From Bryocella elongata (lineage in GTDB: Bacteria; Acidobacteriota; Terriglobia; Terriglobales; Acidobacteriaceae): 64,000 nt of DNA. The notes under the pieces are model-generated. The model did not search any database. It was not told the origin of the DNA and saw only the letters and a program-made list of their open reading frames with translations. The stretch lies in the NCBI RefSeq assembly GCF_900108185.1, contig NZ_FNVA01000003.1, forward strand, positions 434,001-498,000. Reading direction: 5' to 3'. Positions within the stretch are counted from its first letter, which is position 1, and every line of letters starts with the position of its first letter. A program made the position numbers and the translations under genes. Below are positions 4,900 through 16,330 of this stretch, piece after piece.

Positions 4900-4916
4900 T
4901 GTTTGCTCCTCGAGCT

Positions 4917-5321
4917 TTACTGGCGCCAGTGAGCGTGGTCGTGGTCCCAGCCCGAACCGGGGTGTTCCTTCATGTACACGCTGCGCAGCCGGGCGGCTTC
5001 ATAGCCGCGTGCGAAGGCCGCACGATACGCATCGCGAAGCTCCTTCGGTACGGGCGGGTGCTTGAACGCGGGCGATCCGCCCGGCTCCATGCGGCGGCCG
5101 CTCAGGAAGTCCGACTGGGCGGCATCGATGCCATCGTGGAAGGCGCGGCGATTCATGTCATCGAACTCCGCCGGTGGGGCATCCCAGGGGCGGTCCTGGC
5201 CGGCGCCTTCGGCGTACAGAGCATGCGGCGCAGGGGCAGCATGGGCGCGGGTAACACCGAGGCTCAACGCCACAGCGGGAATCACAGCAAACAAGGCCGA
5301 TTTCATTGCAAACTTCTTCAC
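4917..5321 (-). CDS. Small secreted protein with His/Asp/Trp tail, copy 1
   Basis: A 134-residue secreted protein of unknown function and paralog of the next gene (5548-5955). After a signal peptide ending in THAHA-like RAHA, both share PWDAPP..EFDDMNRRAFH.GIDAA, HPPVP, a RD.YR..FARGY.AA helix and a tail WDHDHAHW with four His/Asp residues that could bind metal. I choose the GTG at 5321: the leader AAGTGAGGAAC and the next 17 bases align exactly with the ATG start region of copy 2, whereas the internal ATG at 5306 would remove the conserved KKFA start of the signal peptide. The first copy lacks an obvious terminator of its own. Confidence 0.75.
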   Translation of the reverse strand: MKKFAMKSALFAVIPAVALSLGVTRAHAAPAPHALYAEGAGQDRPWDAPPAEFDDMNRRAFHDGIDAAQSDFLSGRRMEPGGSPAFKHPPVPKELRDAYRAAFARGYEAARLRSVYMKEHPGSGWDHDHAHWRQ

Positions 5322-5481
5322 AACCAGTTCCTCACTTTCAGCCCGGATCTCCGGGGACAAATCAACTGCGGTCACCAGCATGAACTGATGAGTCGTAGGG
5401 CGCAAGGCCGCAGGGTGAAGATTCGATGAGCCTTGCCCCAAACGGTTCCGGCGATATTGGCCCGGTGTACCGCACGAGGAA

Positions 5482-5506
5482 AAGGCCCGCCGGGGTGGCG
5501 GGCCTT
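5482..5506 (-). terminator. Intrinsic terminator after copy 2
   Basis: A perfect 10-bp stem (AAGGCCCGCC at 5482-5491 with GGCGGGCCTT at 5497-5506, 5-nt loop) is followed on the minus strand by TTTTCCTCG. It separates the two paralogous genes, so copy 1 probably has its own promoter in 5322-5481. Confidence 0.8.
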
Positions 5507-5547
5507 CTGGCTGAAGCAGCGGACCATCCTGCTGGTCCAGGCAAATC

Positions 5548-5955
5548 CTAGTAGTGCCAGTGATCGTGGTCGTGATCCCAGTTCTGACCCGGGTGATCGC
5601 GCATGGACATCATGCGGTTCTGGGCTGCCTGGTAGCCCCGGGCAAACGAGTTGCGGTACTGGTCGCGGAACGGACGGGGCACCGGTGGATGGCGGAAGTT
5701 CTGCGAGCGGTCCACGGCCAGCATGCGGTGATTCTGGAAGTCCCAGCGCGCCGCGTCGATGCCTTCATGGAAGGCGCGGCGGTTCATGTCGTCGAACTCC
5801 CGCGGCGGAGCATCCCACGGGCCTTCCTGCCCGACGCCTACGCCGATGGAGATCTGGCCCGGCGCAGGAGCCGCATGGGCCTGCGTCGCGCTTACACCCA
5901 GCGCTACCGCAGGTATTACAGCCAACAGAGCAAATTTCTTCCAAAAGGTCTTCAT
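5548..5955 (-). CDS. Small secreted protein with His/Asp/Trp tail, copy 2
   Basis: A 135-residue paralog of the protein at 4917-5321. Residues 1-26 form a signal peptide (FWKKFALLAVIPAVAL, cleavage near HAHA/AQAHA). The mature part has PWDAPPREFDDMNRRAFHEG, an HPPVP motif, an amphipathic RDQYRNSFARGYQAAQ helix and an ending WDHDHDHWHY. The start ATG follows GTGAGGAACC. The mature domain is small (about 110 residues), soluble and periplasmic or secreted. Function unknown; the clustered His/Asp at the end suggests metal binding, which is inference only. Confidence 0.8.
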   Translation of the reverse strand: MKTFWKKFALLAVIPAVALGVSATQAHAAPAPGQISIGVGVGQEGPWDAPPREFDDMNRRAFHEGIDAARWDFQNHRMLAVDRSQNFRHPPVPRPFRDQYRNSFARGYQAAQNRMMSMRDHPGQNWDHDHDHWHY

Positions 5956-6124
5956 GGTTGGTTCCTCACTTTGAGCCGTCTTCGGCCCCTGGGTGTAGGA
6001 CACCAACCTGCGCCCCCGGGTTGTTGCACGCAACGCAAACATTCTTCGGAGGTTACACGATGTAATCTGTCCGGGGTTGCCTGGGTGGTTCAGGACGAGC
6101 CCACCCGGCTAACTCCCGGCACGA

Positions 6125-13463: not shown

Positions 13464-15119
13464 CTACTTCACCTCGGCATCGAACACGCCTGTCTCCACG
13501 GTGCCGGCATGCTTCATCTGGATGAAGATTCGATAGCGTCCCGGGGAAGGGAAGCCGTAGGGAAAGCTCACCATGGGCGAAAGCGCCGTGTGTGCCATGC
13601 CTGGCATCGAGCTCATGTCCGCACCCTTCATGACCATGCCTGGCATGTCGGGCATGCTCTGAGACGAACCCAGCGTCATGTCCGATCCGGTCTGGCCCGC
13701 GCTCGTGGAGGCGTTGGCGAGCATCATCGCGGGCATCGCCGCCGAGCCCTCCGGATGCGTATGCGCGAAAGCAGTCAGGTCGGTCTTGACGAAGGCGGCG
13801 TGGCCTGGCATGCCGAGATACGGCTCGACATCGGTGGCGGGTTTGCCGGTTTTATCCAGCAGGGTGAACTGGAAGGCGTAGCCCCGGTTCGCGTCGATGG
13901 TCGCAGGCTTGGCCCACACCATCGAGTAGCCGTCGGGAAGCTTGTAGCTCGTGCCGAGCTCACCTGCCGAGAGTGGCGGCGGTGCGGCGGAGGCATCGTC
14001 CACTGCGAGCGGCGCAGTAGACAAGCCGGCGGGGATGTTGAGGGTCGCTGTCTCGGTCTCCGGGAAGCCATTCCGGTAGACGATGTCGGCGAAGAGCTTG
14101 TAGGTGCCCGGAGGCATGGCGGGGAGGGATTCACTCAGGCCGCGCTGCAGCGCTCCGTTCTTTCCCGAGAGGGCGGTCATCGGCGGGCGACCCTGTGCGA
14201 TGGCGCGACGAACGGCCTCGGTCTGCTCTGGCGTGAGGATGATGGTGTTGTCAGGCTGCGGGTGCAGGTGGAAAGCGGCGTCCATCTCAGGTATGCGGAT
14301 GGCATAGAGGTGCATCAGCTTGCCGTGGTCTGGCAACAGGTCTTCGGCCTCGACGGCGCGCCAGCCGCCGCGGGCTTTCTTGTCGGGGTCTCCGATAGTG
14401 ACGGTAAGCAGGCTGCCGTGCAACACCGGGCGCATCTCGCTCGCATGCCAGATGCCGCTGGCGTAGTCGGCAGCTTCGACGTTCCACCACTTGCCGCCGA
14501 GCCAGACCGCACCCAGCATTAGCACCAGCGTGGTGATGCCTGCGCTGATCGCGAGCCGGTTGCGGTCCGGCGTGGGCTGCGTTCCAGGCTCCAGCCTTGC
14601 CTCACGCGTAGAGGCCATCACGATGCCCACCGCACCCACGATCAACAGGAGACCCAGCGCCGCGAGGATCGTGCCCATGCCCTTGTCCATGCGGAGCATG
14701 CTCAGCGCAGCCGCCGGAACAGGAACGCTGGCTGTCGCAGGGCCGGAAGCACCGTCTGCCGTGAGCCGCACCTGCCACGAGCCCGTGGCCATCAGCCACA
14801 CCGACCCCGAGAAGAAGCTCGGATCATCCGTCGAGCGTGTGAGGGTGTCTGCTGTCGGAGGATGCTTCGAGGCCTCGCCCGTCAGCATCATCGGCGCGAT
14901 GGTCAGGGAGCTGACGGCCGCGCCCGAGGTACGGACCTCGACGGTCGCCACGCCCGGAATCACCTGCGGTGTGCGGATCGTGACGAAGAGCGTGTAGGGG
15001 CCGGCCTGGACCTGCTCGAAGATGTCCTTGTTACCGACATGGGCGCGGGCTGGCGGCGTGAAGCTCAGAACGAGGAGTGCCAGCAGGAGCGCGAACGAGT
15101 TGCGAAGACGCTGGGACAT
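13464..15119 (-). CDS. Membrane-anchored, Met- and His-rich protein (metal handling suspected), partner of 15119-16330
   Basis: A 551-residue protein. Residues 1-26 form a signal peptide; 27-140 are a beta-sandwich-like periplasmic domain (YTLFVTIRTPQVIPG, WLMATGSWQVRLTADG) resembling FixH/YtkA-type folds. Two membrane helices follow (about 149-170 and 189-207), then a large C-terminal periplasmic part. That part holds two similar His motifs: DHGKLMH..HLHP (His265, 270, 284, 286) and PGH..AHTHP (His440, 453, 455). Residues 462-517 are a Met-rich stretch with MPDMPGM, MKGADM and SMPGMAH motifs like those that bind Cu(I). No cofactor can be proved from sequence. Its ATG overlaps the TAA of the upstream gene by one base (TAATG), so the two are translationally coupled. 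Confidence 0.8.
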   Translation of the reverse strand: MSQRLRNSFALLLALLVLSFTPPARAHVGNKDIFEQVQAGPYTLFVTIRTPQVIPGVATVEVRTSGAAVSSLTIAPMMLTGEASKHPPTADTLTRSTDDPSFFSGSVWLMATGSWQVRLTADGASGPATASVPVPAAALSMLRMDKGMGTILAALGLLLIVGAVGIVMASTREARLEPGTQPTPDRNRLAISAGITTLVLMLGAVWLGGKWWNVEAADYASGIWHASEMRPVLHGSLLTVTIGDPDKKARGGWRAVEAEDLLPDHGKLMHLYAIRIPEMDAAFHLHPQPDNTIILTPEQTEAVRRAIAQGRPPMTALSGKNGALQRGLSESLPAMPPGTYKLFADIVYRNGFPETETATLNIPAGLSTAPLAVDDASAAPPPLSAGELGTSYKLPDGYSMVWAKPATIDANRGYAFQFTLLDKTGKPATDVEPYLGMPGHAAFVKTDLTAFAHTHPEGSAAMPAMMLANASTSAGQTGSDMTLGSSQSMPDMPGMVMKGADMSSMPGMAHTALSPMVSFPYGFPSPGRYRIFIQMKHAGTVETGVFDAEVK

Positions 15120-16330
15120 TACCGCTGCACCCCGCGCATCCACCGGCCAAACGCCAGCCCCAGCCAGGACGAGATCATTGCGTAGACCGTCGCGAGGGTG
15201 AGGCTGATGGCCAGCTTCTCGCCCCACACCGGCTGGAAGAAACGGCGCGCGCGCTCGTAGCCGTTGGGGCGCGCGGTGTAGTCGAAGTACATCGAGCCGA
15301 AGAAGCGGTTGTCCGCGTGGTGCGAGAGCAGGAAGTTCGCGAAGTTCCACTCGATCGGCGCCAGGATCGCCATGAAGACGATGCCGGAGACGATGGCGAT
15401 CTGCCACAGCTTCCAGCTCTTTGTGCGCTGCCACAACAGGTCTAGCGCGAAGGCGGAAGGCAGCAGCAGTACGGGGAACTTGGCCGGAACCAGGTGCGTC
15501 ACGGGGAAGTACACCGGGCCCAGCTTCGGCTGCGCGGGGAAGAGCGGGAAGATCAGGATCTCGCCGATGACGAAGGCCATGTAGATGGTGCAGCACACCG
15601 TCGCGGCCCACTTGTATCGCGAGGCCTGCCAGAGCACCGCCAGGATCACGGGCACGGCGATGGCCAGCGCCACGTACGCCGATCCCTGGTGCAGCACGAT
15701 GTCCCACGTGTACTCCTGCACGAAGAACATCTGCCCCACCACGGCGATGCCGCCGAGGTAGAGGAAGAGCTTCTGGAGTTTGGGGAAGACTGCCGCATCG
15801 GAGTCCGCTGCACGATTCATCGCGGCCAGGATCAGGAACATCATGCCGAGGCTCACGGCACGGATGCCGAAGATCAGCAGCGTATGCGGCGGCGAGACGA
15901 TCTTCACGTCCAGCCCATAGGCGTTGTGCCACCAGTTGTCGAAGGGCGCGGAGGTGAGCATGGCGACGCCGCCCCAGCCGGCGAGGAAGACGCCCAGCGG
16001 AGCGCGCAGGCCGAACACACTAACGGATTCAGCGCGAAGCTCGGCGGCGCCCGCGCTGCGGCCAAAGGTGGCGCGCGTCACCAGCACCAAGCCCACGATT
16101 CCGGCCAGCACGCCGCACAGGTAGATCGCCATGTGGGCCGGGGTCCAGAAGGTATCCCGGCCGATCGAGCGGTGCCACGCGACATCCCACGACCCTCCGA
16201 TCGATGCTGAGGTGACGGCGACCACGCCCGTCCACAGGTACCAGGGCACCACCGCCGGTCGGGTTCGTACCGCCGGGGCTGCTGCGTGCGAGCCTGCCAG
16301 AACGCCTGTTGCTGCCGCTGTCGATGCCAT
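15119..16330 (-). CDS. Polytopic membrane protein with duplicated His/Asp motif, partner of 13464-15119
   Basis: A 403-residue integral membrane protein with about nine to ten hydrophobic helices. I do not recognise a named family. Two matching motifs stand out: D49-x2-WH53-x3-G-x-D59-x4-P-x-H66 and D131-x2-WH135-x3-G-x-D141-x5-P-x-H149, each at the end of a helix. They point to an internal duplication and a possible metal or haem site. Later polar membrane features include VQEYTWD and LLSHHADNRFF. The start ATG at 16330 has GGAGG eight bases upstream. It is the first gene of the pair; its stop overlaps the start of the Met-rich partner. Confidence 0.8.
   Translation of the reverse strand: MASTAAATGVLAGSHAAAPAVRTRPAVVPWYLWTGVVAVTSASIGGSWDVAWHRSIGRDTFWTPAHMAIYLCGVLAGIVGLVLVTRATFGRSAGAAELRAESVSVFGLRAPLGVFLAGWGGVAMLTSAPFDNWWHNAYGLDVKIVSPPHTLLIFGIRAVSLGMMFLILAAMNRAADSDAAVFPKLQKLFLYLGGIAVVGQMFFVQEYTWDIVLHQGSAYVALAIAVPVILAVLWQASRYKWAATVCCTIYMAFVIGEILIFPLFPAQPKLGPVYFPVTHLVPAKFPVLLLPSAFALDLLWQRTKSWKLWQIAIVSGIVFMAILAPIEWNFANFLLSHHADNRFFGSMYFDYTARPNGYERARRFFQPVWGEKLAISLTLATVYAMISSWLGLAFGRWMRGVQR

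Follow-up and report, generated by a model that had tools for sequence, protein, structure and literature searches.

What kind of system is encoded by two overlapping genes of a soil acidobacterium, both overlooked by standard annotation, whose products each carry pairs of histidine motifs? The window, that is, the whole stretch of 64,000 nucleotides that was analysed, belongs to a genome of 5.67 Mb, and among the matches listed, Granulicella and Terriglobus are the closest named ones. On the minus strand, on which all features described here lie, gene A (15119–16330, an ORF of 403 aa for a polytopic membrane protein) is followed by gene B (13464–15119, an ORF of 551 aa for a secreted and membrane-anchored partner), and the two share a TAATG. 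An earlier note on this DNA had delimited both reading frames and their junction exactly, and had concluded from the overlap that A and B are produced in equal amounts; the overlap is compatible with translational coupling, but equal production does not follow from it. The note had also described two related motifs in gene A, D49-x2-W-H-x3-G-x-D-x4-P-x-H66 and D131-x2-W-H-x3-G-x-D-x5-P-x-H149. Both are present, and the observation on the A/B pair is confirmed as real and conserved: residues D49, H53, H66, D131, H135, and H149 are unchanged in 96/96 aligned gene A sequences, and the motif pair is therefore not due to chance. What has to be abandoned is the view that no family is recognizable, as the analyses below relate gene A to the C and A subunits of copper membrane monooxygenases and its motifs to the CuC and CuD sites.

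Gene A as a fusion of PmoC-like and PmoA-like halves

The known copper membrane monooxygenases oxidize methane and ammonia and are composed of three subunits. A search of all PDB chains with the single gene A sequence gave PmoC of particulate methane monooxygenase as the sole match (E 0.0066), and a profile of 15 gene A sequences gave AmoC as the sole match (E 0.0023); in the profile-to-PDB alignment, the gene A family consensus 'WDVSWHRSIGRDTFWTPAH' is paired with AmoC 'QDASWHQVIIRDTSFTPSH'. AmoC was found independently with a profile of actinobacterial relatives, and all of these searches returned PmoC/AmoC exclusively from 177,635 sequences at E values up to 10. The similarity covers residues 23–180 (15791–16264), and the hhalign comparison with 39 C subunits reached 37.8, as compared with a maximum of 21.7 for column-shuffled controls (n = 60) and 16.0 for the reversed control.

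The ligands of the CuC site are Asp156, His160, and His173, and those of the CuD site Asn227, His231, and His245 (PMC12576850); CuD is considered to be the active site and CuC to be non-catalytic (PMC11194816). When the profiles of gene A and of six canonical C subunits were compared without guidance, both gene A motifs landed on both copper sites: the first (D49 to H66, 16133–16186) on CuC and the second (D131 to H149, 15884–15940) on CuD. The ligand positions 49/53/66 and 131/135/149 are spaced exactly as in the published sites (4/13 and 4/14), and the six positions map one-to-one onto the copper sites of the solved structures. D49, H53, and H66 reproduce the CuC pattern Asp-x3-His-x12-His in register and without variation, and H135 and H149 are the equally invariant counterparts of His231 and His245, whereas the position of Asn227 is Asn in 39/39 canonical sequences and Asp in 96/96 sequences of the new group. 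In an alignment of 19 canonical, 4 acidobacterial, and 14 actinobacterial sequences, the four histidines, Asp49, Arg58, and Asp59 are universal; Asp131 in place of Asn sets the new group apart from the canonical sequences, and of the pocket residues, Phe177 is replaced by Tyr or Gln and Phe240 mostly by Ile, Val, or Leu. Arg58 aligns with Arg165 of the C subunit, which hydrogen-bonds near the copper site. The exchange of Asn for Asp at CuD would alter the copper chemistry. The metal-dependent membrane system that had been proposed is probable.

The second half of gene A (residues 176–403, 15122–15805) resembles PmoA/AmoA. With the AlphaFold model of gene A (mean pLDDT 77.5, pTM 0.81), pMMO/AMO chains alone reached a Foldseek probability near 1, though with E values of 0.01–0.08, and VIA placed PmoA/AmoA chains, which we take to be PmoA by the usual chain naming in those entries, on residues ~176–403 (Z 13.0–13.8) and PmoC (7s4m_C) on residues 26–178 (Z 7.3). 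PmoC and PmoA from one complex thus fall on consecutive halves of gene A. A profile comparison with four PmoA sequences aligned residues 191–399 with PmoA 39–246 (E 0.0017) in a register near the structural one. For a helical protein, VIA Z values of this size do not suffice alone, and neither does the PmoA sequence match; the half is assigned as PmoA-like because sequence, structure, and subunit order agree. A PmoA-type second membrane subunit is thus indicated by fold and profile, fused and not as a separate chain. As sequence profiles, the AlphaFold model, and structure searches concur, we regard it as very likely that gene A is a natural fusion and a distant homologue of PmoC/AmoC and PmoA/AmoA.

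It could be argued that gene A is an unrelated enzyme with convergent Asp/His motifs, its likeness to pMMO being a coincidence of a helical bundle and a motif, as identity is low, at 19–27% within short aligned segments, and all curated models score below their thresholds. However, the two motifs align in register with the two copper sites, with the exact spacings and with matching arginine and acidic residues, the other half of the protein matches PmoA from the same complex, scores drop sharply in the shuffled and reversed controls, and the known bacterial and archaeal C subunits are themselves only ~16.5% identical (PMC9038741). We therefore consider convergence highly improbable. Scans of A and B with Pfam and NCBIfam gave nothing at threshold, including the curated AmoC, PmoA, and PmoB models, and the pair thus has no curated family; the earlier note had named a hit to a characterized family as grounds for giving up its view of a novel system, and the link to a characterized superfamily partly provides these grounds.

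A membrane-anchored partner with two HxHP domains

The AlphaFold model of gene B (pLDDT 87.8) consists of a signal-peptide-like helix, a beta domain (residues 30–136), two transmembrane helices, and two further beta domains. Because the pair Ala26-His27 is invariant in 49 sequences, a set that had been chosen for this pair, cleavage of the predicted signal peptide (residues 1–26, 15042–15119) likely exposes His27 as the N-terminal residue of the mature protein, comparable to His33 of PmoB. Four further B loci read xHVG or xHIG at this position and also retain the histidine. Judged by the one CuB pattern of an N-terminal His with an HxH motif, the site is nonetheless incomplete, since HxH is absent from residues 27–140. 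The beta domain itself (residues 27–140, 14700–15041) matched CrdA with a VIA Z of 10.5 (2.8 Å over 101 residues) and CopC with 8.6, but other beta domains score nearly as high, and the likeness to CrdA/CopC is therefore one of fold only; the sequence match to CrdA is weak (E 0.15). While the fold of residues 30–136 is common to these proteins, the domain in B differs in being membrane-anchored, by two helices predicted in the AlphaFold model (residues 146–173 and 184–221, 14457–14684), and in being followed by the HxHP domains.

AlphaFold, hhalign, and conservation together delimit a first HxHP domain at residues 228–365 (14025–14438), with H265, M269, H270, H284, and H286, and a second at residues 376–551 (13467–13994), with M437, H440, H453, H455, and M462. 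The two H...HxHP motifs that had been pointed out in B are real: in 81 sequences, H265, H270, H284, and H286 as well as H440, H453, and H455 are 99–100% conserved, and so are M269, M437, and M462. The two domains match each other (hhalign P 8e-4) and look like a tandem duplication, and together with the two gene A motifs this bears out an internal duplication in both proteins. The Met-rich stretch is present too, but it is not a tail; it is a variable internal loop of the second HxHP domain (residues ~465–513, 13581–13727) that is modelled with low confidence (pLDDT <50 at 479–502) and contains 1–12 methionines (median 6, 81 sequences).

In layout, B is like PmoB: it is a periplasmic partner that probably starts with a His and whose beta domains are separated by an anchor of two helices. 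It differs from PmoB by the two HxHP domains that replace the C-terminal domain of PmoB. No homology was detected when every sub-domain of B was compared with PmoB on sequence level, and there is no PmoB among the Foldseek and VIA matches listed for the B model. The first HxHP domain gave P values of 0.012–0.027 with PmoB, which reflect mainly the superposition of HxHP on HxHP and are not claimed as homology, and profile comparison gave no support for equating 'GSWQVR' of B with 'GTWHVH' of PmoB.

The HxHP part, which no Pfam or NCBIfam model describes, also occurs in stand-alone, periplasmic-type proteins homologous to B residues 265–543 (blastp E 1e-13 and 2e-10). Those at L219 (4040–5323), L221 (4495–5595), L222 (4046–5305), and L224 (4401–5456) differ from B in having cupredoxin or HMBD domains and no pMMO-like partner, and the L219 gene lies between a CusA-type pump gene and a cupredoxin-like gene. 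The genome containing the window also encodes such a stand-alone protein (L220, 3731–4849).

Distribution, gene context, and possible function

A genome scan with gene A confirmed at least 541 relatives, and the best 80 of these are nearly all labelled Acidobacteriota, isolates included; a few carry the labels Rhodanobacteraceae, Nevskia, Myxococcales, or Acidimicrobiia, which may be wrong labels of bins. Of 297 genomes sampled evenly across Acidobacteriota, 16 have a gene A match. The co-occurrence of A and B, which had been proposed for examination, is strict: a full-length B adjoins the full-length A in 14/14 sampled genomes, the remaining two genomes containing fragments, and the distance matrices of A and B correlate with r 0.91 (permutation maximum 0.20). 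The C and A halves form one ORF in every complete relative, in place of a layout with three genes for C, A, and B. Viral contigs contained no gene A relative and no PmoA, although PmoC sequences were obtained there. A PmoA search in 399 genomes around a 'Nevskia' MAG gave 0 matches, but the controls were equally silent, and this result therefore shows nothing.

With the exact CuC/CuD spacings, an equivalent of Arg165, the PmoA-like second half, and the order C-A-B, the pair resembles PmoCAB/AmoCAB, whereas the fusion of C and A in one chain, the Asp at CuD, the changes at pocket positions Phe177 and Phe240, and scores far below the curated thresholds set it apart. A-B belongs to the wider copper membrane monooxygenase superfamily as a deep, homologous branch and is not pMMO or AMO proper; it should not be classed with these because it lacks the CuD Asn, the HxH of CuB, the three-gene layout, and scores at the curated thresholds. 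In the open-access literature searched, we found no description of A-B, though one may exist elsewhere.

The best explanation, to which we give about equal weight for and against, is that A and B form a two-subunit membrane copper complex, from a deep and unannotated branch of the pMMO/AMO superfamily, in which the CuD-equivalent site activates O2. Gene A would unite the C and A subunits in one chain, with two 2-His/1-Asp sites held by its first four membrane helices and with its second half as PmoA-like scaffold. Gene B would take the place of PmoB, with a periplasmic copper-type domain, a probably exposed N-terminal His, and two membrane anchors, and its HxHP domains would probably bind copper and hand it on. 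We infer copper binding and the assembly of A with B, and the CuD-equivalent site may then activate O2 and oxidize some small substrate at the membrane by a chemistry that would differ from methane oxidation, given the changes from Asn to Asp at CuD, from Phe177 to Tyr, and from Phe240 to Ile. The enzyme is favoured because the complete ligand sets and the PmoA scaffold are retained; taken for itself, the oxygen-activating function stays slightly on the doubtful side, judging from sequences and models.

The main competing explanation is a copper-handling complex on a pMMO scaffold that is not an oxygenase. The HxHP domains and the Met loop of B would take up copper in the periplasm and transfer it to the two His2Asp sites of A, where it would be transported, stored, sensed, or handed to another cuproprotein. 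We consider this reading a realistic possibility although hardly a probable one; the HxHP domains, the Asp ligand, the actinobacterial context, and the fact that pathway genes are lacking speak for it. Stand-alone HxHP homologues of B exist, some beside CusA efflux pumps and cupredoxins, the N-terminal domain of B is similar to CrdA and CopC, which are copper-resistance proteins, and with Asp in place of Asn the CuD-equivalent site, too, becomes a carboxylate site of the CuC kind, CuC being considered non-catalytic (PMC11194816). Clustering of the neighbourhoods of 80 loci revealed no third conserved gene and no conserved metabolic pathway gene beside A-B; the commonest neighbour, present at 25/80 loci, is a long protein whose distance and strand vary.

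The actinobacterial context is that of plasmid-encoded proteins (L117, 4944–6371; L118, 4917–6362; L119, 4902–6371; L121, 4944–6377) that share with gene A the PmoC-like core, in which the two Asp-type sites are invariant. They are homologous to gene A over about the PmoC half and little more, up to residue ~260 (E 8e-22), and differ as single chains of 475–489 aa with a C-terminal periplasmic domain that starts at AHDPGQG after a membrane helix; no gene B was found beside them. The relatives of Streptomyces F2, Streptomyces mirabilis, and Mycolicibacterium aubagnense are located near copper-related or CopY/BlaI-type genes, and the M. chubuense relative has CcdA/TlpA genes and a regulator of the CopY/BlaI type in its vicinity; across the group, the neighbours include multicopper oxidase, cupredoxin, heavy-metal P-type ATPase, and CcsB/ResB genes. 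In Acidobacteriota, however, the pair is almost never found near copper genes, as a copper ATPase was within reach at only 1/80 loci with a limited probe set, and the conservation of both ligand sets, Arg58, and the whole PmoA-like scaffold exceeds what copper binding would appear to need. An internal signal-peptidase cut that exposes the His of AHDPGQG in the actinobacterial chain is conceivable. A plasmid of Rubrobacter marinus contains an unannotated gene A relative with both motifs that is apparently split by a frameshift (L120, about 4900–6016).

Returning to the oxygen-activating complex, we tentatively suggest that A-B could represent a new class of oxygen-activating copper membrane enzyme that is widespread in cultivated soil Acidobacteria and, with the actinobacterial forms, a side branch or relic of the copper-handling ancestors of methane and ammonia monooxygenases. 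The pair may stand for a pathway of oxidation or of copper in soil that is invisible to curated models. The fused C-A chain, the changed active-site ligand, the copper-chaperone-like partner, and the culturable hosts, including Terriglobus roseus, Granulicella mallensis, Edaphobacter lichenicola, and Acidipila rosea, would make it a tractable outgroup for questions about the workings of the CuC and CuD sites and the origin of the enzyme.

Some Acidobacteriota have only fragments of A and B (L021–L023 and L215–L218, genomes G206 and G252), and one gene A copy contains an in-frame TAG (L014, G194), which suggests decay and loss in some lineages. Three gene A copies are present in the MAG Acidobacteriales bacterium 59-55 (L027, L060, and L061).
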